Source: Rhizophagus irregularis (lineage: Eukaryota; Glomeromycota; Glomeromycetes; Glomerales; Glomeraceae). Taken from it: a stretch of DNA of 64,000 nt. Below, piece after piece: positions 24,541 to 63,635 of this stretch. The translations under genes were made by a program, and so were the position numbers. The notes under the pieces were generated by a model that did no database searches, was not told where the DNA came from, and saw nothing but the letters and a program-made list of their open reading frames with translations. Position 1 is the stretch's first letter, and each line of letters opens with the position of its first letter. The stretch is taken from positions 3,534,001 to 3,598,000 of the forward strand of contig NC_089448.1 of NCBI RefSeq assembly GCF_026210795.1, read 5' to 3'.

Positions 24541-25902
24541 TTAAGGAAGATGTTTATACGTTTCTATTTCAAAGGCATTAATATCTAAACCTTCCAAAAA
24601 ATTATTCAAAGTAATCAATTTACATCCATAAATTTTTGATAATTCATATTTACTAAACCATTTTGAAGCTTCAATCAAATTTTTATCAGTTCCATTACCA
24701 TCTCTATAATATTTTGCAACTAAATAAATAGCTCTTATAAAATTTTTATTGGCTAATTTTAAATACCATTTAAATGCTTTCTTCTCATTCTTATTATTAA
24801 AATAATATTCAGCTAATTTATGTTGAGAATCATAATGACCATTTATTGCAGCTTTTCTATTCCAATAAAATCCTTTCTTTTCATTTTTTAATACATAAAT
24901 TCCTTCATAATAATAATTTGATATTAAATATTGACAATGACTATCACCTTTATTTGCAGCTTTTAAATACCAATCAAAAGCTTTCTTCTTATCTTTTAAA
25001 ACGCATATACCATTTTCATAAAATTCACCCAATTTATGAGAAGCATATTTATGACCTCCTTCAGCAGATTCTAAAATTAATTCAAAACCTTTTTCTTCGT
25101 CTTTCATAATATAATATCCATTTTGATAACGTAAACCTAACATATATCTTAAACCTAATACATAAGTTGCTTTAATATTTCCACCTTCTGATGATTTTAA
25201 ATACCATTCAAATGACTTTTCATAATCTCCATCAATATTTTTACCATAATGACAACAAATACCTATATAATATTGTGATACTGGATCACCATTTTCAGCA
25301 TTTCTCTTATGTAATTTATAATTATCTTTTCTAAATAATATAATATCTTTATAAAGAAATAATGAATAAAAATATTGTACAATTATTTCATTTATATTAT
25401 TATTATCATTACAATAAAATGAAATAGAATCATTTTCTTGATCTGTTGATTTTGATTTTGATTTTGATCTTTGATTATTATTTTTAACAGCATTAGAAAA
25501 TATTTCATATGCTTTAATTTCATCTACATTACAACCAATACCATTTTGATAAAAAAATCCAACCAAACTTGAATAATAATAAATATTTTGAGAATTACTT
25601 GTAATAATTTCAAATACATTTTTAGGATCTAAATCATACTCAAATAAAAAATTATTTATAAATTCATTTAATTTATCTTTTTTAGAATCACAAATTTCTT
25701 CAACTTCTGCGTTTAAAAGGATTATATATAATTCTTGTAATAATTCTTTAAAAAGTTTTGACATAAAATCATTAATAAAAATTATATTAGGACTTTTAAT
25801 ATTAAATTTAAATGTTGATTCATAATTTATAATATTTGAATTTTTTGATAAAAAAATATTATTATTATTATTATTATTTTGTGAATCGGATATATCGGAC
25901 AT
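24541..25902 (-). CDS. Sel1-like repeat protein
   Basis: This 453-residue single-exon protein has an Asn run near residues 10-16 and a helical N-terminal part (about 45-145) ending in one Sel1-type unit ('YYYSSLVGFFYQNGIGC ... KAYEIFSNA'). A run of Sel1 repeats follows from about residue 205 to 430. Units such as 'QYYIGICCHYGKNIDGDYEK' and 'ASHKLGEFYENGICVLKDKK' show the family pattern of small residue, Leu, Gly-x-x-Tyr-x-x-Gly and 'KAFxWYLKAAxxG'. Sel1 repeats form alpha-solenoids that scaffold protein complexes, often in signalling or ER quality control. In Glomeraceae they are greatly expanded and often linked to kinases; no kinase domain is present here. No signal peptide or membrane helix is seen, so it is probably cytosolic. 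Binding partners cannot be inferred. Confidence 0.88.
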   Translation of the reverse strand: MSDISDSQNNNNNNNIFLSKNSNIINYESTFKFNIKSPNIIFINDFMSKLFKELLQELYIILLNAEVEEICDSKKDKLNEFINNFLFEYDLDPKNVFEIITSNSQNIYYYSSLVGFFYQNGIGCNVDEIKAYEIFSNAVKNNNQRSKSKSKSTDQENDSISFYCNDNNNINEIIVQYFYSLFLYKDIILFRKDNYKLHKRNAENGDPVSQYYIGICCHYGKNIDGDYEKSFEWYLKSSEGGNIKATYVLGLRYMLGLRYQNGYYIMKDEEKGFELILESAEGGHKYASHKLGEFYENGICVLKDKKKAFDWYLKAANKGDSHCQYLISNYYYEGIYVLKNEKKGFYWNRKAAINGHYDSQHKLAEYYFNNKNEKKAFKWYLKLANKNFIRAIYLVAKYYRDGNGTDKNLIEASKWFSKYELSKIYGCKLITLNNFLEGLDINAFEIETYKHLP

Positions 25903-27892
25903 AATGAAATATTTAAAAAAGTAAATAATAATAATCAGGAGTAAAAAAAGTCGTTATTATATATACTTTATTATTGGTCGTGTAATGTTACATACGGTTG
26001 CATAGCAAACATGCGCAATAAATTGTTGATCAGCCGTCATATTTCTCATAATTTATAATGTGGCGCTTTGTGTAACATTTCTCATTTGTAATTCTTTCAT
26101 TTATGAGAATGTTAAATAATAACAATAACACGAAATCAATAATCGTTGATTTTGATGATAACATTACCGCTTTATTAGATAGTTAAAATAATTTTTACCG
26201 ATATAGTTTCTAATTTAATTACATTATAATTTTTTTTTTATCTTTTTAATCAAATTTCATTAACTGTTAACTGTTTAACATCCAATATTATTATGCATGT
26301 TGAAAATCATGAGATTCAGCAAATATCGGGATATACAAAATTTTTTTCCTAATTAAATTGATTGTTTCCATTATTCTCAAAATCTTAAATCTTTTTTTGG
26401 TAAGAATCAAATACAGTATTAATATTTTTTATAATCCTTAATCCTTATTAATGTACTTACGTATACAAAACGAACGATCATCGTATTGTTGTCGATATCA
26501 GAAGGTTATCATACCATTTTTGTTGTTATTTTAACAGTCATTCCGAATTTTATAAATTTGAAACAATAGGTTATTAGGTTATTAAAAAAAATGGTTATTA
26601 TTAAATTTTTTAATTTTTTAGATTATTTTAAAGGTATAAAAAGTCCACTAAATATTTTTGTACAAGTAATCTAAAAGCCCACCATATTTTCATATGATGA
26701 TGCAAAATCATGTGAATATCTCGACATCAGCAAGAAAAGAATTTGAAAGGATTTAAATTACGTTTGGATTTGAGCAAAAAATTCAACACCCCAATTATCA
26801 TTTACAATTCAGAGATAATTAGTCGGGTTTTATTATTTTAACGGTAGACAAATTATATTATATATATATATATATTTTATAATTTTTCTATTTAATTTTA
26901 AAGTAATAATTTTTTTTTTATTAAAAGCCTTTGTTGAATTTTTTGACAATTAAATTGTGTCTATGAGAATATGCGCTTTAAGAGTATTCGCACATAATAT
27001 ACAGGTAATATTTTAATAATATTTTGTACTTTCAGTGTTGTTGCTTGGTTCGTATTTCGGTCCGTATTCAGATTGGAATGTTGAAGAATTAACTTGATCA
27101 ATTTACAACAGAACAAATGTATTCGTCATATCATATGCTTAATCAACACTAAAATTTTCAATTAATGGTAAGTATCGTCAAACTCGATAGTGCTAGTCGG
27201 AATTACTATTATATCGGCCGCCACTATTGATCCCGTGACCAAATTCTGTAGATGCCTGATCCACCACCGAATTTGATTGGACAATATATATCGTGAATCA
27301 TTGTTCAGATTACCGTACACATTTTTCCTTCTCTCTTTTGTAATACTCATGTTTTTATTTTTCATTTTTTTTATTTTTATTAAAAAAATAATATTTTTAG
27401 TTATATCATAGTTGAATAATAATATTGCTGATATTGCTATTTTTATCATGGAGCTATGGCATTTTCATGATTATACTAACTCTATTGACATAATTTTTTA
27501 CATTGGAACACCAAACACTATTGGGACTGATTCTGAAAGATAGAAATATTTTAATAATAATTTATTTATATTTATTTATGAAATTATGACTATAGTATTT
27601 TGTAACAATAAAATGTAATTTTTTTTAAAAAAAATATTATTAAAATATGAATAAAGAGTACAAAATTTTATTTACAATCTATTCTAGAATATTTTACTAT
27701 TTTGCGTATAAAATACGAATAAAATTTTCTTATTCAAACATAAAGTTTGCTGGCTAATTGCTAATAGATGACAAATTGTTAATTGTTTTAAAAATAGCAT
27801 CGCTGGTAAATAGAATTCTAAACTTTCATAAGGGCAATCTTAAAACTTTTTTGATATTTCCTATATATTTGAAACCAAATAAATACTTTATC
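25903..27892. other. Intergenic, no gene
   Basis: No supportable gene. There is a TA microsatellite at about 26860-26875. A 95-codon minus-strand frame at 27162-27449 has no coding character. Confidence 0.5.
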
Positions 27893-29599: not shown

Positions 29600-31853
29600 T
29601 AAAAATCTTGATTTTATAAAAATTGCAAACATATTATGATAAATATTTTATAATTTTTATCAAAAAAAATAGCCCGTCTTAAAGGCAGTTCAATTTTCAG
29701 ATATGAAGTATCGAGCAGATTATAGTAAATCTCCTTTATTGTTTGTGGATATTCTTGAAGTTGATGACAGTGACCTACAAAAAAAAATGCCATCAATTTA
29801 TTTGAAAGGAATCTTCTCAACAAATTTTAAGAAAGAGATAAAATATCGTCTTTACAAACGATACTATGATATTAATCTTGATAGAGTTTTAGATACGCTT
29901 ACTACAATGGATGAAAGGAACGAACATGAATCAGTATTTATGGTAAATTCCTTTTTTTTTGTTCGAAATATTTTTGCAGAAAATAAATAATTAAATCTAA
30001 TTAAATTACATTCATTAATTTAGAATCTTTTAAAAGATCCAAATGAGTGGGCACTAACTGGAGAAGTAGAACAATTTAAAAAGATCAAATTACAAATATC
30101 TCCATCACAAGAAGAAATTTCAAAAAAAATATTGGAAAGAGACTTCAAATTGTTTGGGGACCACCTGTAATTATATTTACATTTTGCGTATATATTATTA
30201 TTTTATTAACAACCTTTTCCATTTAATAGGGTTCTGGTAAAACACATTTCCTTTCGCTGTTTACCACATGGTACTTAAGTGAATATAAGTGTAAGTTGAC
30301 AAAGAATTATATAGTCGGTGTAACTACTGTAACGGCTTTTACTAGGGCTGCTATCAAAAATTTACTGGATAGAATTTCAACTGTACAAAAACAACACCAT
30401 AAGACGAGTGATTTGACATCATTGATTTAGCTGATGATTCAAAAAAGAATCACTTTAATGGAATAAAAAAATGTAGAGCATGGAGTTTATGGAATAAAAT
30501 TGGAATTAATGATAAACCAACTGTGATTGGAAGTACAGTTTGTGATTGGTTTAAAGTAAGAAAGAGTTGGAATTCTGGTTGGGTCGGATGTGATATAATG
30601 ATAATCGACGAAGGTTCTCAGGTACGTTCAAGTACTACTTAAAATTCAAAAATATTATATTCATAATTTAAAATTGAATTAAATTTTCTATGTTGTTTTT
30701 TAAATAGTTATTGGTATCAGATGCTAGCATTGCAATTGAATGTTTGAATCCAAAAACAGGAAAGTTAATTGTTGTCAGAGATCATATGGTAATTACGTAA
30801 ATTTTATAAACAAATCAAATCTGTGTTTAGTGTTTACCCTTTTTTATTCTAAATAGCAATTTGGACCAATTCTTCAAGCCACTTATCCTACATTTTCACT
30901 CAATCATTTTCTCATATTTGGGTCAATCCTACAATGTTTAATGCGTAAAGAGAATGGTAACGTTATTCATGAGGAAAATTTAATCTTACGAGAAGAGCAA
31001 AAACATAATTTTGGACCTCTTACGGCACAACTTAAAGAAAATTGGAAAATGGTCTGTTTTGTCATAATACTTTTTTATTTCAATTTTAATTGAATTAATA
31101 ACATCATTCCTATTTCAGAATGAAAAATCGAATAGTTTTTTTCAAATGATATATGGTAAAGATTATAAAATTTCACCGCTAAAAGAAACAAAATTATTGC
31201 CATCATTATTATTTGAAGATCCAGATTCACGAATTAAAAGAATTTTATCACCAGACTCAGCAATTATACTAGTAAAACTTATGGCTAGAAACAAGGGACT
31301 AAGAAATAATCCAAGAACATTAGAAGATAAATTTTTACAAACTGAAGTCGAAGTTGTGGAAAAAATTTATATTTCTATAAATAATGTGGAAGAAACCAAG
31401 AAGCAATCATTACTTGTAGTAACACCGTCTCATCGACAACGAATTGCAATTCAATTAAAGCTTAAAAGATATCCAAATATTAATTTACAAATAATTGATA
31501 CAACAGAAAAAATGCAAGGAAAAGAAACAGATATTGTTATAGCATGTTTTGGATTTTATAATTTGGATAAAACATCCAAAAAAGAATTTGTGTTTAAAAT
31601 AAATAGATGGAATGTAGCAACAAGTAGAGCAAGATCTAAAGTAATTATTATTACAACTGATAAAATGCTTGACCCTGAAGATATAGAAATATCCACCAAT
31701 AAGAAAATGAGAGAAGGACGTGCATTTCTTAATATGATTGAAAACTGGGTACAAAATAATGATAATAATATCGGAGAGAAAATAAAGAGAGAGAATATTG
31801 GCATTATTAAATGGACAATTAGTGGTGATGAAAAAAAACAAAGAAATGATTAA
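29600..31853 (+). pseudogene. 5'-truncated, frameshifted copy of the RecB/RNase H/SF1 helicase gene
   Basis: This segment is homologous to introns and exons 5-10 of the intact gene at 41371-46077, in inverted orientation. The nuclease and RNase H parts are absent; homology starts inside the intron before exon 5. Damage relative to the intact copy includes one base missing near 30137 in the exon ending at Walker A, and one base missing near 30412. In addition, helicase motif III reads 'VRDHMQF' instead of 'AGDHMQF' near 30775. Splice sites are still recognisable and the last exon (about 31120-31853) remains open, with 'NRWNVATSRARSK' (motif VI). A functional helicase is not expected. A chimeric transcript is possible (see 29515). 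Confidence 0.85.
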
Positions 31854-32122
31854 ATTTTTTTAATTTTCAATGATAGTAAATGGAAGATGTTTTAATTTAT
31901 TCATGCTAATACTTTTGTTATATCTTGGATATCTTGAACTTTATTTATGCATTTATATCATTATCTTAATGATTTAGTATTATTCGTACTATTTTTTGTA
32001 TTTGGACTAAAGTAATAAATGCTTCTTAAATGAAATTTGCAAATAAAGCTTTTATAACCTAATTGCATTATGTAGCTACAAAATTTTCAATACGTCATTC
32101 ACAGTAAATAGGATTTACCCAG

Positions 32123-33022
32123 TGTTACGTGATAAATTGCACACATGACTTCCGATGATATATGACGATCCAATGTAGTTTGTACACATGTCGATTTTCG
32201 ATATTATATAACGATGTATGACGATTATGACCGCAGATTATTGTACATGAGATTAACTAAATAGAAGATATTGATTTTATTGGTTACATTTACAAATGTA
32301 GCATTAGTATAGTTATTATACTTATTATTTTTATTATTGTTATGTTATTTATTTTCTATATTTGTATTGATTATGTATATATAAGATAATGTAGGATAAT
32401 TAGCTCAATGGTAATTTAGCCGATAGAATTTTATTATTTATGGTTTAATAACCGTGGCTTATAATGAAGAAATATTACTATTGTAAATACGAAGTAATAT
32501 TACACTGAAACATTAACGATTATGACAATAAGATAATAATAGATTTAGATATTTATCTTGATGATAGAAAAAAAGAGATGGGAATTAGATATAAATACAC
32601 CTTTTGTTAGCTCGTTGATAAACGGATAGTATAAGGTCATATTACGAAAAATAATATTATCCTTAGTTATCTATAGTTATATTTCCTTTAGACATATACC
32701 TTTATCCTCTTTCTGCCATTTTTTTTTATCGTGTTGTTATATTCTCATAATCCTACGTTGTTAATAAAATCATTATTTTTCGGTCTATAATATAACCTGT
32801 TGTTTCTGTATATTCTACTATAAGATTCGTCTTATAACCATCGGGTGTTGTTATTTATCGTATTTTGTAGTTATTTACCGTGACGATTCTTAACGAACAA
32901 TACCGGAATACCAGGATAGGTAGTATTGAGTAAGGATTTCGTCGTAATCGTGTGATTGTGTAGATATACGATATAATATCTTTAGTTATCCGATAATTAT
33001 TTGCCGATATATTTCGGTAACA
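32123..33022. mobile_element. Candidate solo LTR, 900 bp, with 4-bp target-site duplication
   Basis: The element begins TGTTAC and ends GTAACA, canonical TG...CA LTR ends with a 6-bp inverted terminus. It is flanked by CCAG at 32119-32122 and 33023-33026. The right arm of the inverted duplication has the empty site 'ttacccagcgtaccctac' (about 41090-41115), so the boundaries come from direct comparison. No open frame and no internal retrotransposon genes, as expected for a solo LTR. It inserted after the inverted duplication formed. Confidence 0.68.
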
Positions 33023-40789: not shown

Positions 40790-43625
40790 TTGTTTACACG
40801 TAAAACTCGTAAAAACTCATCGTTTTTTAATTTTTCAATTCTCGCAGATAAGTGAAGGTGACAATTAGCCAATCTAACTGACGATGCAAGTAATATTTTA
40901 TTTAATAAAATACTTTTACATTTATCCGAAGAATCAAGAAATAAATTGAAGAATCAAGAAATTGATCTTCTTATAGAAATATATTACAAGCGACCCTTTT
41001 TAAGAAATTAACTATGTGACAAATAATGTGTGACAAATAGGATTTTGAAAAATGGGAATAAACCAGTCACGTGTTTTTGTGACATTTTTGTAGGGTACGC
41101 TGGGTAAATCCTATTTACTTCGAATGACGTATTGAAAATTTTGTAGCTACATAATGCAATTAGGTTATAAAACTTTATTCGCAAAATTTATTTAAACAAG
41201 AAGCATTTATTACTTTAGTCCAAATACAAAGAATAGTACGAATAATACTAAATCATTAAGATAATGATATAAATACATAAATAAAGTTCAAGATATCTAA
41301 GATATCTCAAAAGTATTAGCAGAATAAATTAATAAATATTCCATTAACTATCATTGAAAATTAAAAAAATTTAATCATTTCTTTGTTTTTTTTCATCACC
41401 ACTAATTGTCCATTTAATAATGCCAATATTCTCTCTCTTTCTTTTCTCTCCGATATTATTATCATTATTTTGTACCCAGTTTTCAATCATATTAAGAAAT
41501 GCATGTCCTTCTCTCATTTTCTTATTGATGGATATTTCTATATCTTCAGGGTCAAGCATTTTATCAGTTGTAATAATAATTACTTTAGATCTTGCTCTAC
41601 TTGTTGCTACATTCCATCTATTTATTTTAAACACAAATTCTTTTTTGGATGTTTTATCCAAATTATAAAATCCAAAACATGTTATAACAATATCTGCTTC
41701 TTTTCCTTGCATTTTTTCTGTTGTATCAATTATTTGTAAATTAATATTTGGATATCTTTTAAGCTTTGATTGAATTGCAATTCGTTGTCGATGAGACGGT
41801 GTTACTACAAGTAATGATGGCTTCTTGGTTTCTTCTACATTATTTATAGAAATATAAATTTTTTCCACAACTTCGACTTCAGTTTGTAAAAATTTATCTT
41901 CTAATGTTCTTGGATTATTTCTTAGTCCCTTGTTTCTAGCCATAAGTTTTACTAGTATAATTGCTGAGTCTGGTGATAAAATTCTTTGAATTCGTGAATC
42001 TGGATCTTCAAATAATAATGATGGCAATAATTTTGTTTCTTTTAGCGATGAAATTTTATAATCTTTACCATATATCATTTGAAAAAAACTATTCAATTTT
42101 TCATTCTGAAATAGGAATGATGTTATTAATTCAAATAAAATTAAAATAAAAAAAGTATTATGACAAAACAGACCATTCTCCAATTTTCTTTAAGTTGTGC
42201 CGTAAGAGGTCCAAAATTATGTTTTTGCCCTTCTCGTAAGATTAAATTTTCCTCATGAATAACGTTACCATTCTCTTTACGCATTAAACATTGTAGGATT
42301 GACCCAAATATGAGAGGATGATTGAGTGGAAATGTAGGATAAGTGGCTCGAAGAATTGGTCCAAATTGCTATTTAGAATAAAAAAGGGTAAACACTAAAC
42401 ACAGATTTGATATGTTTATAAAATTTACGTAATTACCATATGATCTCCGGCAACAATTAACTTTCCTGTTTTTGGATTCAAACATTCAATTGCAATGCTA
42501 GCATCTGATACCAATAACTAGTATTTAAAAAAACAACTTAGAAAATTTAATTCAATTTTAAATTATGAATATAATATTTTTAAATTTTAAATAGTACTTG
42601 AACGTACCTGAGAACCTTCGTCGATTATCATTATATCACATCCGACCCAATCGGAATTCCAACTCTTTCTTACTTTAAACCAATCCCAAACTGTACCTCC
42701 AATCACAATTGGTTTATCGTTAATTCCAATTTCACTCATTAAATTCTGTGCTCTACATTTTTTTATTCCATTAAAGTGATTCTTTTTTGAATCATCAGTT
42801 AAATAAATGATGTCAAAATCGCTCGTCTTATGGTATTGTTTTTGTACAGTTGAAATTCTATTCAGTAAATTTTCGATAGCAGCCCTAGTAAAAGCCGTTA
42901 CACCAACTATATAATTCTTTGTCAACTTACACTTATATTCACTTAAGTACCATGTGGTAAACAGCGAAAGGAAATGTGTTTTACCAGAACCCTATTAAAT
43001 AGAAAAAGATGTTAATAAAATTACAAAATATACGCAAAAATGTAAATATAATTACAGGTGGTCCCCAAACAATTTGAAGTCTTCTTTCTAATATCTTTTT
43101 TGAAATTTCTTCTTGTGATGGAGACATTTGTAATTTGATCTTTTTAAATTGTTCTACTTCTTCAGTTAGTGCCCACTTATTTGGATCTTTTAAGAGATTC
43201 TAAATTAATGAACGTAATTTAATTAGATTTAATTTTTTATTTTCTGCATAAAATATTTCAAACAACAACAAAAAAAAAAAAAAGGGAATTAACCATAAAT
43301 ACTGATTCATGTTCGTTCCTTTTATCCATTGTAGTAAGCGTATCTATAACTCTATCAAGATTATAATCATAGTATCGTTTGTAAAGACGATATTTTATCT
43401 CTTTCTTAAGATTTGTTGAGAAGGTTCCTTTCAAATAAATTTTTTTTTGTAGGTCACTGTCGTCAACTTTAAAAATATCCACAAGCAATAAAGGAGATTT
43501 ACTATAATCCGCTCGATACTTCATATCTGAAAATTGAATTGCCTTTAAGACGGCCTATTTTTTGATAAAAATTATAAAATATTATCATAATATGTTCGCA
43601 ATTTTTATAAAATCAAGATTTTTTA
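40790..43625. repeat. Right arm of large inverted duplication
   Basis: This is the inverse of 29600-33575. It carries the 3' half of the intact helicase gene and its 3' flank. Lacking the LTR-like insertion of the left arm, it shows the empty target site. Confidence 0.85.
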
Positions 43626-46077
43626 AAATAATAATTATTTGTTACTTCAGAATTATCTTCAACGAGAATAAAACTCTTGTATAAGCTACTTTCCAACTCT
43701 TTTCCATTATTACTTAGAAGAGTGAATCGTGCAGTTTCTGAATTACAAAATTCTTCAAATTTAAGTTTACTTCCATATACAGCTTCGCCTTGCATAAAAT
43801 CTCTAATCCTATCATATTTATTTTGGTTACATTCAGTTATAGCTTCAAATTGTTTAAAAAAACATAATTTACCCAAATAATTATGTTTAAATTCTTTAAA
43901 TTTAGTTAAGGTAAAAATTGGCGGAGTAAATATTAATATAGAAGAAATATAATTTGTTGAGTTTTCAAGTAGTTTATAATAAGCTCTTATTGTAGCATTG
44001 ACAAAATTAGTTCTTAATGAATGAAGTTTATTAATAATATTTAATTTTGGATCTAAACGTCCAGAAACCCATAAAGCAAAAATATTTTCTAACTCAATAT
44101 CCTCAATATCTTTAAAGTTATATTCATCTTTTAATGTTGGCTTCACCAGTTGGTTCCATATATCAATAAATCGGTAAAATCCGGGTACATGAATCGCAAT
44201 ATTTTCACTTATCGCATGTTCTAAAATGATCAATCTTGGAAAATCTCTCCATTCTTTCCATTCTTTTGATATATTTGGAAACTTTGTAGAAGACTCCGCG
44301 ACGTTGTTTTGAGTTGCTAATAATGAAGAATCTTCAAATAAATTAAATAAACAGCTTGTAGCTTTTTGCTGAATCTCTCCTGAAATATTACTCTCATCCA
44401 TAGAAATGATCTCTAATAAAGCATCTTGAATAACTTTTTTTTCTTGATCAGAATAGACAAAGACACAAGCTCTTGACTTATTTTCTTGTAAATATTTAAA
44501 ACTTTCTTCCAATTTAGTCACAAAAATATTCATTAGTTCGATAAATGACTTTAATGAATATTTATCCTTTGAAATTGATACAGTGTGCCTATGACCCTTT
44601 ATAAACCGCCCACTAATAGTACAATAGAGGCATATTCCCCATGCAAAAGGACGTGATAAAGAATAATCTAAAGACATTGTGATTATCAAATTATGATCCG
44701 TTTTTCGGGGAAAATTTGCTGTTGGAATTTTAATAAACTTTATTATATTAAAGAAAGGAATTTATTTTTCATTAGTAGGAAAAAGAAATTATTTTGATAA
44801 ATAAATAATGAAAGAAATCTTTTATACCTGTGCTTGGTTAGTTTCTTTAGCCTTAAGATATGGCGACGAACTTTTTAATCTTTTATCATATTTAACAATA
44901 TGTTTAATTCTTCTATTTACATCTTTTTCACTGGAACTGAAATTATCACTTCTAATATCTAATTCCTTTATCACTTCAACTACATCTTCAATATCAACAT
45001 CATCATTACCTGATTTTCTATCACTTATAAAAGTTTTCAAATCCTCAGCTTTCACAAGCGATAAATAAGGAATCATTGAAATAGAACCTATAGCATCTTT
45101 TCTACAAACATTTACAAAATCACAAGTTCTGCATCTTGAATTATAGTGCCAAGTGGATGTTTTTGCGTTTATAATTTCTGGTAATTTATTTCTAAAAAAT
45201 TTCTTTACTTCTGGAAGAAAAAAGTCTAAACGAAATTTTTCTAATTGAAATGGTGTATTTGATTGTGATGATGGTAGAAAAATTCCGCCTGTATTTGAAA
45301 TGGAGAGTCCACTAATTTTTTTAACTATGAATTCAAGAAGAAGCGCATACGAAGCTACTTGAAACTATTTATAATTAAGGAGAAAAAAAGTTATTTATTT
45401 TATTCATTCTATACTTTAATTTTTAATAAACAACTACATATTTTATCGTACCTGATGAGAAGTATGTGTACTTTTTGAAGCCTTAGCATCATAAATAATT
45501 ATCTCTTTCTTACCATGATCTCTTTCTTTAACTTCAATAAAATCTGGCACAAAAGCTCCTAGTTTAATATTATCCATTTTCATTTCATCATAAAATTCAT
45601 CTGGTACATCGAACTTCATTTGATAGAATATTTGATCATTCTTAGCATTTTTTAAGTCATGAATCATTATATCATCATTACAATTAATCACATCCTTTCC
45701 TTTCTTTATTAATTCATTTATAACTTTTAATTCAAAATCTAATCCACGTTTTTTTATTGCCATTTTGTAATTTTTTATTTCCCCGTTATTCTTATACTTT
45801 AATTTGTTACTATTACCTTTGTCTTTGTTACTCCGACCATTGTCTTTGTTACTGTTACCTTTGTCTGATATAAGTCGTATCAATTTCTCACAATTATAAA
45901 AATAATATTGTGATAACTCGGATATTGCCAGCGGTTTCTTTTCCTGCATTATAATATAACATATATTAATTATATCGATAAAAGATAAAATTTTATTATG
46001 TGTACAGTGTATATACAATATATTATAGAAAGAGACATTAACATTACGCATATATATATTTAACTGACCTGCGGCAT
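41371..46077 (-). CDS. RecB-like (COG2251/TM0106) nuclease - RNase H-like - SF1 helicase fusion, 1309 residues, ten exons
   Basis: Inferred exons: 46069-46077, 45452-45943, 44828-45364, 43646-44737, 43294-43554, 43056-43199, 42608-42991, 42437-42517, 42174-42368, 41371-42105. Every exon is a whole number of codons, so all nine introns are phase 0. Residues 1-260 form a Cas4/RecB-like PD-(D/E)xK nuclease: Cys21, 'VPD' (Asp137), 'YDAK' (Asp155, Lys157), Q169-x3-Y173, and C245-x2-C248-x5-C254. The four Cys fit an iron-sulfur cluster as in Cas4. From about residue 360 to 560 is an RNase H-like region of the COG2251 type, with Asp370 in 'TMSLDYSL'. The helicase has Gln826, Walker A GPPGSGKT (843-850, split by an intron), DEGSQ (969-973), GDH..Q (997-1001), 'EKMQGKEADIV' (about 1195) and 'NRWNVATSRARSK' (1227-1239). 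This is a Dna2/Nam7-type SF1 helicase. The role is probably nucleic-acid end processing; the cellular pathway is unknown. Confidence 0.85.
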
Positions 46078-54198: not shown

Positions 54199-56092
54199 GG
54201 GTGGTTGTCAGGGGCAATCGCCCAGACGATGTTTATCATAATTATCAATTTCCCTAAATTTTTACTATTTTATTATTTTAACTTATAATAAACCAAAATT
54301 TGCCATTTCTCTATACTTAATTTACTCATTATAAATAAAAAACAACATTTGTTTATTCTTTTATTTAAGAAAAAGATAGTTTTAAAAAATTTATTTATTT
54401 TAACGAAGCTTGATTGTAAAAGAGAGATCAACAATTTGCATATTTATAAATTGAAGTCATTTTTTTTTTTTTTACAATAACTTCCACTTAAAAGATCTTT
54501 CAAAAGTATGTCAAGCTCCTCCATGAAAATGACTTCTTGTTGGTTTCCTAATGTTTATCAATCAAACCAAAATTGAGCTTTGATCATGAGATTAGTGCAA
54601 CCTGACCAAAAAAGCCGATCAAACAATTATGAACTGGCCTAATGTCAACAAGAAAGGAATTATTGTGATCACAGCAGTAATTGGTTAGAATATAGCTTCT
54701 ATTCGATGTAATCAGATTATATGTTTTGTTACACTTACAGTATAATCGAAGTATAAAAATATAAAAGTTAATATCATTTATATGAATGAAATTCAAAACA
54801 TCATTAAAATAATTACGGTAGAAGCTTTATCCATAACTAACTTTTAGTTTATAGTATAATTTACCTAAAATTTAGGATCAATTGTAATAAATGAGTTTAT
54901 AATACATAATAATTTTTATAATTTATTATGCACCTTTTTTTTTATCATATCAAAAATCGATAATTTGCTAGTTACTCTTGCTTTATCATTTAGCTTGTTA
55001 GAAAATTATATATTATTTGTTTTCCAAAACGTAATACTACTACTGTCTTACTAGTTACTAGTATAAAGAAAATGTTTATGTAAGACATATATATTTTTTT
55101 ATGTCATGATAATATAGCGCAAATATAACTAGAGCAGTGAGCTTGATAAATAATTATTCATTTTTTTCATTTTTTTTTCTTTAGGTTCGGTCAGGGATCT
55201 GCATATGACACAGAATTTTTATCTTTTTTTTTTAGCAATAATTGATTACTAATCAGTTTATCCTTCAATTAATATTTAAAATTTTATTTTTTCAGAACTT
55301 TAAATCTAGTTGTTAAAGCTTACTGTCATATTTTACAGTAATCTTTGAGCGTAACTACTTTTTAACGCTATTAAATTATTATATTTTTGAATTTTAAGAA
55401 AATATTTAGTATGTCATTAAAATACCAAAATTGTTTTAAAATAAAAATTTCATGTTATTAAGAAAATGATGTTAAATAGATGGAAATTTTAATAATTTAT
55501 TGTTTTGTCATAATAATAATAATTATTTTTTTATTTACAGGCAGATTGAAATATTTTTTTTTATAATTATTAACTACTTTAATGATGAATTATATTATAA
55601 CTGAACTCCATTTGTTAATACGAATTTCCTTTATATAATAATAATTATAAAATATTTCTTTTAGTTTTGTATAGAATTTAAAACAAACTAAACTAATTGG
55701 ATAATACATTTTTTTAATCTAACAATTTTAACGCGATTTTAATTATCATAATTTTCGATACATGTTGTTACTTATAACGATATTGATTGACTGTACTATA
55801 TTTTTCAAAGTTTCAATAAAGTACCTTTATACTGTAGTATAATTTTACTAACGAATAATATTTTGGTGTTGGATGACAAAGCTTTATAGTCAGGGATTTA
55901 TAAAAAAGGAAATTTCTTACTTAAATGATCCGTGATTTCTGTGATCATCAGCTGACTTCTTGAACACTTTATAAAATTTGTCAATCGCTGCTGTGCAACT
56001 GTAATACTTTTTAATGCCTTTTTTTTTTAAAAAAAAAAAAAAATTTCTATTCTGTTTAAACATAAAATTGAAGTCACATTTATTAATCCAAT
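54199..56092. other. Upstream spacer of kinase 1, no gene
   Basis: Very A+T-rich sequence without a supportable frame. A poly-T/poly-A palindrome (about 56020-56043) lies ~50 bases before the kinase start. Confidence 0.5.
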
Positions 56093-57801
56093 ATGGAAGA
56101 ATTTATGATCACTGATGATGTATTTGAGCAAATAAAATATTTTGACCGTAGGGACCTAACTGAAGAACAAAGTTTGTTAATTGATAAGTTAATATTAAAT
56201 GAAGAATTAAAAAAACGTTATAAAAAAAATGGTTTATGCAAGGAATGTAAGCAGCTTAATACTAATAAATATTGGTGTAAATCATGTAATACTAAGCATT
56301 TTCAACAAAATTTCAAAAATTGGACTAGTGGAAATCATGAAGTTGATGGGTTTATTCAAAAAACACAACTTAAAGCTAAAAATCATAGGGAAATTTTAGA
56401 ATGGATTGAATATGATAGATTTGAAAATATTGAATACTTGACAAAAGGAGGATTTGGAACTATTTATAAAGCAATTTGGAAAGATGGATATATAAGAAGT
56501 TGGGATTTTGAGAATAATAAATGGACAAGAAGTAAAATTTATTGTGAGACATATGAGAATTTTCCAGTTGTTTTAAAATGTTTACATAATTCTCAAGATA
56601 TTACATCCGATTTTTTAAGAGAAGTAAGTTACTTATTTTGTATATAATTTCAAGATATTGTCCTATTATAAATGTTAAACTATCTATTAATTATTATTAT
56701 TATGGATTCTTTTTTAGATTGAAACACATATGATTTTGTCAGAATATATAGGTGATAGTATAACATGGTGTTGTGGCATTACTAAAGATCCAGAATCTAG
56801 AAATTTTATGATAGTAATGGGATATGTACAAAATGGTAGTTTAAGACAACATTTAAATAATAGTTTTAATTCAACAAAATGGGATGAAAAGTTGTATATT
56901 TTACAAAGAATTGCACAAGGCCTCGATTATATTCATCAAAAAGGGTTAATTCATCGTGATTTTCATTGTGGTAATATATTAAAAGATAGCGATTTTATTT
57001 TTATTACTGATTTAGGATTATGTCGACCAGCAAATGTAAAATCATCTCAAAATGAATGTAAAGAACTATATGGAGTATTACCCTATGTAGCACCAGAAGT
57101 TTTAAGAGGAAAAGGATACACTCAAGAAAGCGATATTTATGGTTTTGGAATTATTGCATATGAAGTCTGTACAGGGCTTCCTCCTTATCATGATATTACT
57201 CATGATAAATTCTTAGCTATTAGCATTTGTCAAGGACTTAGGCCAAAATCAAATTACAAAATTCCCCAATTAATTTTAAACATAATTAAACAATGTTGGG
57301 ATGCTGATCCTTTAAAACGACCTAAAGCAAATGAATTACAAAAGTTATTATTGGATTTATATTATTATAGTAAATATCAGAGTGATCGTGAAATCTATAA
57401 GCAAATTAAAGAAGCAGAAAAAATTAATGAAAAGTTAACATCATCATCATCATTATATACTGGACCTACTCTTTCATATACTACAAATCCTCAAGCGGTT
57501 TACACGAGTAGACTTTTAGATTTTAAAAATCTTCCAGAACCAAAAAATGCTATTGATAACAAGGATGATGATAATTCATTTGGAGAATATTCAGGTAATT
57601 AATTTCCTAATTTACTTTACAAAAGCATTCTTTAAATATTTTATTTGACGTATATAATTATTTTTTTTTTATATTATAGAATCAATAGAAGCAATAGATT
57701 TTACTAAACTAGACCTAGGTACTTATTTCAGTTTATATGATTTATTTTATTAATAATATTATTTAATAATTTATTTTTCACTTATAGATAAAAGCAGCTG
57801 A
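56093..57801 (+). CDS. Protein kinase with N-terminal double-CxxC module (486 residues, four exons)
   Basis: Inferred exons are 56093-56623, 56718-57594, 57680-57718 and 57788-57801, with continuous frame. Residues 40-80 hold a zinc-ribbon-like module (C49-x2-C52, C62-x2-C65) followed by 'NWTSGN', typical of the expanded Glomeraceae kinase family. The kinase domain runs from about 112 to 400: Gly loop 'TKGGFGTIY', Lys162 in 'VVLKCL', HRD (256-258) in 'HRDFHCGN', DLG instead of DFG (275-277), APE (302-304), and 'CWDADPLKRP' before the end. Core catalytic residues are present, so activity is plausible; the family is closest to TKL/receptor-like kinases. The tail has the 'NLPEPKNA' motif and two tiny exons. 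Cytosolic; substrate unknown. It lies in tandem with the kinase at 61.4 kb. Confidence 0.9.
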
Positions 57802-60800: not shown

Positions 60801-61368
60801 ATATTTGACAGTTATTTAAATAGTAAGTCTCTGACGTTTAAAATAGTCTCCATATAAATAATTTGAATTGTGTAACATGAAACCAAGTACATTATGACGT
60901 AATGATTTCTTTCATTTATAAACATAAAAATAATAAATTGAATGTTTCTTATAACCTTTCATTTGAATTATTCACCACGTTGTTTATTTAAAATAAATTC
61001 AACTGAAAATGACTAAAGAAAATTGGCTTTTCATCAATCATGTTTATATTGATTTTTTAAGTGAGATTTAAAAAATAATTACAAATTATTTAATATTCAA
61101 TAAGTTTGACAATCAAATTTGTTAAACACAAATTGTATTCATTGTATTCGTTGTATTCGCTGAAAAAAAAAAAAATAAATTATTAATTTTAAATTATCAT
61201 ACTAAATAAAATTGGGAATAGTAAATGATTTTCTTTTTTTGGGTATGAGGCGTAAAATATTACGCCTCAAGTTTATGTGGGCACAACATGAAGTTTTGAT
61301 CATCAATTTGCATTTTACTAATTTATCACGGAATTCGAGTGAACCGAACTTAAAATAATTCATTCATT
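57802..61368. other. Spacer between the two kinase genes
   Basis: No gene is called. A GC-richer section at 59880-60175 contains an 84-codon minus-strand frame (59886-60140) with a varied composition ('VIDNHSWRIAGDLVYISQRL'). It could be a relic, but it has no recognised motif. Confidence 0.45.
61247..61268. promoter_or_regulatory. 9-bp-stem palindrome upstream of kinase 2
   Basis: 'gaggcgtaa' - 'aata' - 'ttacgcctc' is a perfect inverted repeat about 100 bases before the kinase start, GC-rich in an A+T-rich context. It could bind a dimeric regulator. This is structural inference only. Confidence 0.3.
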
Positions 61369-63635
61369 ATGTCCACCCTTCGATATGAATTAATTTATGC
61401 AGCAAATAATGGAGCAGAAACATTAACAGATACTAGTATTTACAATGATATACACAAACAATTTGAATTTAAGAAACAAACAGTCCTTACTGATAAAATT
61501 CTTACAAATGATGAAAAAACTTATGCAATAAGATTATTAACTGTAAATTATGATCGAGATAGAGTTATGTATAATGATGGTACAAAAAGAATTTGTGAAA
61601 ATTGTAACCAAGAATGTTTAGCCACATTATATTGTGAATATTGTGTCCAAAATTATTTAAAAGAAGATTTTTCAAATTGGACATCTGGAAATGATGATAT
61701 TGATAATTTAATACAGAAATGTCAAATGGAATCACTCATACCGAGTCAAATAGTTGAATGGATCCCATATAGTAATTTAGAAAATATTAATTATTTAACA
61801 AAAGGTGGATTTTCTGAAATTTATACAGCAGTTTGGATTAACGGAAGGTATGAAGAATGGGATTCTGAAAAAAAACAATTAAAAAGATTCGGAAAACATA
61901 AAGTAATAGTTAAAAAATTAGAAAATGTTGAAAGTGCAAATCAAAGTTGGTTTGAAGAGGTTTGTATTATTGTATTCTATATTTTATAAAACTGTTGTAA
62001 TTTTTTGTATTAACACTACTAGTATTTTACAAATTATTATCTTTTAGGCTAAATCACATTTAACTATAAGTAATAAATGGCCGAGAGTTCTTCAATGTTA
62101 TGGTTTAACACAAAATCCATCAAATGGAAATTATATGCTTGTAATATTTGAAATGAATATCGATTTGAGAGAATATTTACAACAAAATCATAAACAACTT
62201 ACATGGAAAGATAGAATTATGATTATTAATGAAATAACTGCTGCACTTTATTTTATTCATAAAGAGGAAGCAATTCATAGAGATTTGCATTCTGGAAATA
62301 TATTATATTCTCAACTTAATAATTTTTGGCGTATTAGTGATCTTGGATTTTGTGGACCTGCTGATAAACCATCAGAAAGTATATATGGAAATCTTCCTTA
62401 CATAGCACCCGAAGTTATTGTTGGAAAAGCATATACTTTTGCATCTGATATTTATAGTGTTGCAATTCTTATGTGGGAAATTTCATCTGGACAACCACCA
62501 TTTAAAAATTATGAACATGAAAATGATATTGTAATGAATATTATTAACGGTATAAGACCAAAAATTGTGCCAGGAACTCCATTAGAATATAAAAATTTAA
62601 TGAAAGAATGTTGGGATGCTGATCCATTAAAAAGACCTGATATTTATGCATATAGGAAAAGAATGAGAAGAATTAATTTAGATTATCAAAATATGTCAGA
62701 TGAATTATTCAAATCAGAAATGGATAATTTAGAAATGAATAAAGTAGAAGAAAATTATATGAGCAGCAGATTATTTACAAGTAAAATTCACAACTTTGGA
62801 AATTTACCTGAACCAAGAAATGCAACAGAAGGTATAAGTGTATAATATTTTATTAATGAATATATTTATTTAAAATACATTATTAATGTTATCTTTTTTA
62901 TTATAATAGAAGAACAAGAAGGTATAACCGTACAAATAATAATTTCTACCATTTTTTAGTTACTATAATAATTTAGTTTTAAACACTTTATTTTACTGCT
63001 AATAGCGTTTCATAGTAAATTGTATGATTTTAACATTCCTAACAATAGTAAGTATTTAATAACATTATAGCGTTGAATTATAATATATTAATGTTAATAA
63101 TTAATTTTTATTTTAGTTAACGACTTTAATAAATCAAATGAGCAGAATAGTAACAAATCATCAGAAGTAATTACAGGTAATATATTTTAATTATTGACAA
63201 ATCGAGATTGATTTATAGATTAATTCTATATCTTAATTTTAGGTGATACTAGTGAAAAATTACCCGAAGAATTTAAAAAGTTGCAAATAAATTCAAATAG
63301 TAAGTAAATTACTAACAAATAAAGTTACTATATCAATTTCATTTATTAAACGCAACTTTTATTTAAAATTTAGATGATGAAAAAGAAAAAACTCAAAAAT
63401 ATGTCGATGGTAGGTGAAAATTTTACGTAATAATGAACAATTTTAATACTGTTTTAATTCTATTTACTTATCTCTTACAGATGATGACGATGTATATAAT
63501 AATCCAAACCTTCATTCAAAAGAACAAGATGAACTGGAAATTCCTGATGGTAAGCTCTTAAAATAAAGTAATTTATTTATAAAGCAAATAATTAATCTAT
63601 AATTTGTTATCTTTTTATCTTCAGATGGAATTTAA
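61369..63635 (+). CDS. Protein kinase with N-terminal double-CxxC module (539 residues, eight exons)
   Basis: Inferred exons are 61369-61959, 62048-62831, 62910-62921, 63117-63176, 63243-63299, 63374-63409, 63481-63549 and 63625-63635, with continuous frame. It is a paralog of the kinase at 56.1 kb. The Cys module is C76-x2-C79 and C89-x2-C92 followed by 'NWTSGN'. The Gly loop is 'TKGGFSEIY' (third Gly replaced by Ser). Lys182 is in 'VIVKKL', HRD at 274-276 in 'HRDLHSGN', DLG at 295-297, APE at 317-319, and the same 'CWDADPLKRP' and 'NLPEPRNA' tail motif. The tail is spread over six small exons, one of 12 nt, which encode an acidic, Asn/Ser-rich region. The N-terminal extension is longer than in kinase 1. 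Probably active, cytosolic; substrate unknown. Confidence 0.9.

Follow-up and report, generated by a model that had tools for sequence, protein, structure and literature searches.

Fused nuclease-helicases of the kind considered here are known from prokaryotes, and the locus described below raises the question of how such an enzyme came to be encoded by an intron-rich gene of the fungus Rhizophagus irregularis. The gene occupies 46077..41371 on the minus strand of a 64,000-nucleotide stretch of contig NC_089448.1, referred to as the window. A preliminary description had proposed, from the DNA letters, an intact fusion of the COG2251/TM0106 type that was either acquired from prokaryotes or represents an undescribed eukaryotic lineage. 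The reading we favor, with a probability of roughly 0.7, is that the gene belongs, as an intact copy, to a fungal family of five derived from prokaryotic nuclease-helicases through an old horizontal transfer, followed by the gain of spliceosomal introns and by duplication. The encoded protein retains a three-domain architecture with intact active-site residues, the structure of the gene is conserved among the copies, and the family takes its place beside a prokaryotic clade.

Re-splicing the gene reproduced the ten-exon frame of the preliminary description, with exactly 1309 residues and with all nine introns GT-AG and in phase 0. Exon 1 (46069..46077; all exon coordinates are on the minus strand) encodes MPQ, with ATGCCGCAG running directly into GTCAGT. 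The PD-(D/E)xK nuclease part begins in exon 2 (45452..45943, residues 4-167), which carries the first iron-sulfur (Fe-S)-type cysteine, Cys21, together with G70 and E74, Asp137, Asp155 and Lys157, and its C-terminal part lies in exon 3 (44828..45364, residues 168-346) with Cys245, Cys248 and Cys254. An exonuclease-like domain lies in exon 4 (43646..44737, residues 347-710), followed by a linker region in exon 5 (43294..43554, residues 711-797). The superfamily 1 (SF1) helicase starts in exon 6 (43056..43199, residues 798-845), which ends in WGPP, and continues with the Walker motifs A (GSGKT) and B (DEGSQ) in exon 7 (42608..42991, residues 846-973), the start of motif III in exon 8 (42437..42517, residues 974-1000), motif III to NWRM in exon 9 (42174..42368, residues 1001-1065), and motifs V and VI, a basic C-terminal tail and the stop codon in exon 10 (41371..42105, residues 1066-1309). 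The nuclease residues and four cysteines are positioned as originally described, and so are the SF1 motifs GPPGSGKT (843-850), DEGSQ (969-973), GDHMQ (997-1001), MQGKE (1197-1201) and NRWNVATSRAR (1227-1237).

A search of the same genome (146.7 Mb, 32 contigs) identified four further complete paralogs, on contigs C21, C5, C9 and C24, in addition to small fragments. The paralogs are 54.6-78.6% identical to the window protein, and the ten pairs among all five proteins span 53.8-78.6%. Exons 2-10 are stop-free in all four paralogs, each on another contig, which lends support to the exon joins. The splice sites of introns 2-9 fall exactly at the position predicted by homology in every case (32/32). 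For intron 1 the acceptor matches the prediction in two paralogs; in the remaining two it is found 21 bases further upstream. Because the modeling considered AG and GT sites at codon boundaries alone, the phase 0 and GT-AG borders of the paralogs are partly built in. By eye, the paralogs have short first exons comparable to that of the window gene, beginning ATGTC(A/G/T)CAG and extending over 9 bases in two copies and about 24 in two. The uniform phase 0 of the nine window-gene introns, with paralogs that fit codon-boundary sites as well, is unexplained if the gene entered the genome without introns.

The ratio of nonsynonymous to synonymous substitution rates ranges from 0.335 to 0.54 over the ten pairs and from 0.26 to 0.70 over 16 domain-wise comparisons, values that indicate purifying selection on the five copies. 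With its frames open and selection of this kind, the window copy was rejected as a pseudogene, and contamination was rejected on the size of the contigs (3.6-5.9 Mb), the introns in common and the presence of five copies. A TAA reported in the C9 copy is consistent with a match that extends into an intron, the exon model of that copy being stop-free.

Three Pfam families match the window protein above their cut-offs, AAA_12 (2.8e-15), AAA_11 (4.1e-10) and Cas_Cas4 (1.4e-5, residues 121-254), and the architecture combines a nuclease of Cas4/Dna2 type, bearing four Fe-S-type cysteines, with a DEDD-exonuclease-like (RNase H) fold and a UPF1-like SF1 helicase. In an alignment of 25 rows, five of them fungal and 20 prokaryotic, the four cysteines, G70, E74, D137, D155, K157, Q169 and Y173 are invariant throughout, so that both the cysteine set and the PD-(D/E)xK residues of a Cas4-type Fe-S nuclease are in place. 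Of 19 helicase positions checked, 16 are likewise invariant, and variation is confined to H999 (H in 8 rows, D in 17), A1232 (A in 8, S in 16, one gap) and R1235 (present in 24, a truncated row having a gap). Introns interrupt the coding sequence of the fungal protein, and the N-terminal half was for this reason modeled from a 663-residue stretch of a Methanoculleus relative (mean predicted local distance difference test score, pLDDT, 75.1). Foldseek placed Dna2 at the top for this model (5.6e-5), followed by MGME1, Cas4 and EXO5 at 0.008-0.03, and VIA-align matched it to the DNA polymerase alpha exonuclease domain (Z 12.4) and to Cas4 (Z 10.0; root-mean-square deviation, rmsd, 3.5; 192 residues aligned).

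The middle domain was assigned from an AlphaFold model, its structural matches and a table of motifs. Modeled alone with a 24-sequence alignment, exon 4 gave a mean pLDDT of 70.7, with ten-residue blocks at 85-96 over residues 11-130 and 94 residues below 50. Its best structural neighbors are the polymerase alpha exonuclease domain (Z 13.5, rmsd 2.9, 175 aligned) and then the DEDDh enzyme 3'hExo (Z 13.3, rmsd 3.4, 178 aligned), and it is on this second comparison that the fold assignment rests, Foldseek alone being weak (best E 0.011). The RNase H-like region of the preliminary description is borne out as a fold, but the window protein has no Pfam match to PF13482 (RNase_H_2), and the catalytic D-x-E is missing, a point the earlier account did not contain. 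In the first exonuclease motif, D-x-E is kept in 5/5 readable TM0106-type rows (for example FFDIEGDP), and across the wider non-TM0106 family the glutamate occurs in 0 of 33 readable rows and the aspartate in one, as illustrated by IITMSLDY in the fungus, VLTIQKDP in Methanoculleus and YLNVQRDH on a haloarchaeal plasmid. With these residues lost, the middle domain is probably a dead exonuclease.

Relatives were sought in prokaryotic species genomes, plasmids, IMG/VR, phages and the fungal genome itself. An alignment of the fungal proteins alone found no relative in prokaryotic genomes or IMG/VR, and the successful scans used a mixed alignment of fungal proteins with haloarchaeal and Chloroflexota plasmid proteins. 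This recovered at least 45 relatives among 84,980 species genomes. Among the matches listed, a Planctomycetaceae metagenome-assembled genome (MAG) aligned by tblastn over query residues 11-1231 (24% identity, 5e-55) and Methanoculleus over residues 136-1242 (26%, 3e-46), E-values being relative to the candidate stretches. Phylum samples were searched with a profile containing both of these sequences, and the resulting distribution looks patchy: 6 of 392 genomes matched at 1e-130 or better in the phylum of the Planctomycetaceae MAG and 28 of 392 at 2e-99 or better in that of Methanoculleus (centre genome counted in each), 8 of 377 at 1e-60 or better in the phylum of a genome titled Myxococcales, and one of 385 at the same threshold, over query residues 746-1256 only, in that of a Chitinophagales MAG. 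None of 398 genomes matched at E<=1e-60 in the phylum of a gammaproteobacterial MAG, a cut-off that also excludes that MAG's own match of 4.5e-54. Viral collections yielded at least 15 matches in IMG/VR with the mixed alignment, one weak match to the helicase part (2e-6) among phages, and no relative in another scan of viruses with a fungal/Planctomycete/Methanoculleus profile. Ten of the 15 listed IMG/VR matches were put in the tree, where they group with proteobacterial or TM0106-type proteins, and five were not placed; a eukaryote-virus intermediate finds no support in these scans.

The helicase tree comprised 57 rows, leaving out L030, L034, L050, L067 and L083 as well as the second copy of each of L015, L017, L018 and L029; among the matches listed, 33 of the 45 species-genome loci and 4 of the 15 IMG/VR loci were not extracted. 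With support of 98/98 (a starred node), the five rows of the fungus form the sister group of 20 rows from the phyla of the Planctomycetaceae MAG and Methanoculleus (L028, L089-L092, L103-L117). Outside this group branch proteobacterial and viral rows (92/94), Chloroflexota and haloarchaeal rows (87/93) and TM0106-type proteins, and further out stand the fungus's own Dna2 and three of its other AAA_12 helicases, eight such loci having been fetched and four fragmentary ones left out. The grouping is repeated by a tree of the N-terminal half (35 rows, with 10 of the 20 prokaryotic clade rows used and L018, L031, L032 and L082 left out), in which fungal and prokaryotic rows form a clade of 15 at 100/99, starred, so the nuclease, exonuclease-like domain and helicase appear to have traveled together. 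A third tree joined the same ten clade rows with four from the Myxococcales phylum, two of them with over-long N-termini; the fungal clade stays outside the prokaryotic one (100/98, starred), within which three phyla are interleaved. The fungal rows are thus sister to the prokaryotic clade and not nested inside it. Consistent with the trees, a hidden Markov model of the fungal helicase scores the 20 clade rows at 154-202 bits and the four added later at 146-187, and the other prokaryotic and viral rows at 36-116 (one of 19). The prokaryotic affinity claimed in the preliminary description therefore extends over the whole fused protein, given tblastn matches over most of the query and the agreement of the helicase and N-terminal trees.

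Eight gene neighborhoods from the prokaryotic clade were fetched and seven examined, with Pfam searches of 20 neighboring proteins and PADLOC searches of seven proteins from four neighborhoods. In one, from the Planctomycetota sample (locus L131, genome G335), all three neighbors searched match PADLOC models, mREase_IV (1.9e-127), PDC-S11 (8e-22) and ZacC (2e-296), and by these matches the nuclease-helicase gene sits in a predicted defense island. Elsewhere PADLOC matched one of two proteins, weakly, at L132 (LmuB, 2e-10) and neither of the single proteins at L129 and L134, and Pfam returned mostly repair (HhH-GPD, UvdE), metabolic, transport or unassigned genes, with a sulfatase, peptidases and, at L132, a phage integrase. 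Among more distant fused relatives on plasmids, a Piwi gene or a restriction endonuclease adjoins in 3 of 10. On a Salinigranum rubrum plasmid (L135:6559-17503) a four-gene run consists of Piwi, the nuclease/helicase, a metallophosphoesterase and a Rad50-like AAA_23 protein, and in two others a restriction endonuclease directly follows the gene, with Mrr_cat in one. Nucleases and helicases are reported to occur in Argonaute operons (PMC6299218).

Several observations weigh against a transfer from prokaryotes. A long stem leads to the fungal rows (1.29, 1.75 and 1.99 changes per site in the helicase, N-terminal and third trees), the tree program flags long branches and unlike amino-acid composition, fungal rows included, and in the helicase tree neither of the two nodes next outward from the fungal-prokaryotic group (92/94 and 87/93) is starred. 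We found no close prokaryotic donor, and the four added rows of the Myxococcales phylum brought a donor no closer. Selection on the five copies is loose, and defense genes surround one of the seven clade neighborhoods, with repair, metabolic or unassigned genes around the others. The searches covered prokaryotic and viral sets and the fungal genome itself, and the case for transfer could look different if other eukaryotes carry sister genes.

Such sister genes would be expected if the family were anciently eukaryotic, whether passed on by vertical descent or spread from one eukaryote to another or from a virus, with its other members outside the collections searched. The long stem and the lack of a close donor fit this account, as do the eight introns exactly common to the five copies, which imply long residence in a eukaryotic nucleus. 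We nevertheless consider it unlikely, as the fungal proteins are placed among prokaryotic families in both the helicase and N-terminal trees, two viral scans returned no relative, and the viral matches of the third that were placed belong with proteobacterial and TM0106-type proteins. An ordinary eukaryotic helicase of the Dna2, UPF1 or ZNFX1 type that has diverged is very improbable, even though a sequence search of the PDB with the window protein finds Dna2 best (1.8e-5), with SMUBP-2, UPF1 and ZNFX1 weaker, and Dna2 also leads the Foldseek list for the N-terminal half of the Methanoculleus relative. The genome has a separate Dna2 gene on contig C31, where its one PF08696 match found lies (1.9e-47), and the window protein has no match to that family at E<=1. 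The fungus's four own AAA_12 helicases score 11-39 bits against the fungal-helicase model, being shorter pieces that score lower for that reason, compared with 146-202 bits for the prokaryotic clade rows. In an approximately unbiased (AU) test, a single clade of the fungal rows with these four (one Dna2 and three of no named type; named UPF1 and ZNFX1 rows were not in the tree) cost 64 log-likelihood units and was rejected with p-AU 0.00066; a tree inside the DNA2/ZNFX1/UPF1 clades, named in the preliminary description as what would overturn it, is to that extent opposed. Least credible is that the protein belongs to TM0106/COG2251 proper with an active RNase H domain, since, despite the same domain order and weak TIGR03491 matches to some relatives, those matches are below cut-off or absent, the fungal rows fall outside TM0106 in both trees, and D-x-E is lost in all 33 readable non-TM0106 rows.

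The likely mode of action of the fungal protein can be sketched from its domains. Dna2 and UPF1 move with 5' to 3' polarity, and by analogy the UPF1-like motor would travel 5' to 3' along single-stranded nucleic acid, feeding the strand to the Fe-S nuclease, which would cut it in a Dna2-like division of labor; the proofreading-exonuclease fold between them would probably act as a scaffold or nucleic-acid clamp. Basic C-terminal tails, recognized by eye, suggest a nuclear location: the window copy and those on C21 and C9 have KRKR and the C5 copy has GRKRTK, C24 being the one of the five without such a tail. In the nucleus the enzyme could process DNA ends or foreign and transposon DNA, and the protein is best read as a DNA end-processing enzyme, possibly with a part in genome defense, as the preliminary description had envisaged and as the gene context of the prokaryotic relatives makes plausible. 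We suggest, tentatively and as a proposal more doubtful than probable, that a nuclease-helicase of prokaryotic mobile elements or defense, from a wider family some of whose members lie beside restriction enzymes and a Piwi gene, was captured by a mycorrhizal-type fungus, intronized, given a nuclear-type basic tail and multiplied to five copies that, with active sites intact, make up a nuclear, DNA-degrading layer of defense against transposons or DNA viruses.

The window also holds an inverted, 5'-truncated duplicate of the gene on the plus strand (29601..32125), comprising exons 5-10 and downstream sequence without the nuclease part. It is probably a pseudogene, and its arms match 41097-43623 on the minus strand, 9 kb away, at 82-98%. 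A transcript spanning both segments could fold into a long hairpin. Elsewhere in the genome, ten PF13087 (AAA_12) helicase matches within about 373 kb at C26:2450617-2823177 mark a local expansion of UPF1-like helicases. Other open frames of the window (24541-25953, 56087-57602 and 61354-62845) resemble, by eye, a Sel1-repeat protein and protein kinases.

No account of the fungal family was found in the literature on Rhizophagus, horizontal transfer, nuclease-helicases and COG2251/TM0106, most subscription papers being outside reach, and the words helicase and nuclease are absent from the available main text of a survey that covers gene transfer to early-diverging fungi (PMC11291939). A eukaryotic branch with five intron-rich copies, in which the residues of nuclease and helicase are kept, would show clearly that a fungal nucleus can take in a large DNA-processing enzyme of prokaryotes whole, and the family offers a direct test of whether prokaryotic defense enzymes act as genome guards in fungi.

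Among named systems, TM0106/COG2251 (TIGR03491, PF13482) shares the order of a RecB/Cas4-like nuclease, an RNase H-like domain and an SF1 AAA_11/AAA_12 helicase. One study (PMC3985635) describes COG2251 proteins as combining DUF83, PF13482 and often tandem AAA domains and places PF13482 near PolB exonucleases, consistent with the fold found for exon 4. TM0106-type rows keep D-x-E and exceed the TIGR03491 cut-off, and the fungal family does neither. The cut-off is 97.45 bits, which two proteins of TM0106 type exceed with scores of 222 and 124; five of nine prokaryotic relatives tested match at E<=0.01 with 18-34 bits, the window protein has no match at E<=1, and none was found in the genome by a scan that can miss weak matches. 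With TM0106-type proteins lying outside the fungal-prokaryotic clade as well, the fungal family is best described as a cousin of TM0106/COG2251 and not a member. The preliminary description thus had the direction right, toward prokaryotes, and the exact family wrong, and of the profiles it had named, those of the SF1 helicase matched and those of COG2251 and PF13482 did not.

Dna2 similarly unites an Fe-S Cas4-type nuclease and a UPF1-like helicase in one chain, but Dna2 is not known to have an exonuclease-like middle domain, and such a domain sets the window protein apart from it together with the missing PF08696 match and the separate Dna2 gene. Two models of PADLOC are matched by the helicase part alone, Mokosh MkoA (6e-27) and DpdJ (PDLC02895; 7e-22 for the window protein and 2e-55 for Methanoculleus), which points to a kinship of the motor only. 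PDLC02895 has 2112 positions, of which roughly the initial 480 are taken up by the SF1 match, and the fungal protein ends after its SF1 part. DpdJ is named a YprA-family helicase in PMC12458937. A two-gene form occurs in alphaproteobacteria: Methylobacterium divides the protein between two genes next to an integrase, of which the second is of DpdJ type (1e-288 over the part searched) and carries the same SF1 helicase, and on three alphaproteobacterial plasmids (L027, L019, L014) the gene directly upstream of the DpdJ-like helicase, of 768-774 residues, holds the nuclease and exonuclease-like parts. PADLOC gives this upstream gene no label beyond one weak Cas4 match, and the one tested by Pfam (L027) has no match at 1e-5; it appears to be an unlabeled system component.

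The closest counterparts are the prokaryotic fused nuclease-helicases themselves, which bear no family name in the libraries used and are annotated as 'AAA domain-containing protein' or 'bifunctional RecB family nuclease/DEAD/DEAH box helicase'. The prokaryotic clade, with its degenerate exonuclease module, lacks a dedicated model among the matches seen in Pfam, NCBIfam and PADLOC. It shares with the fungal proteins the domain order, the four cysteines, the PD-(D/E)xK residues, the degenerate exonuclease-like domain and the SF1 helicase, and unlike its uninterrupted genes, those of the fungus form a clade of their own on a long stem, with ten exons, five copies and a basic tail in four of the five.

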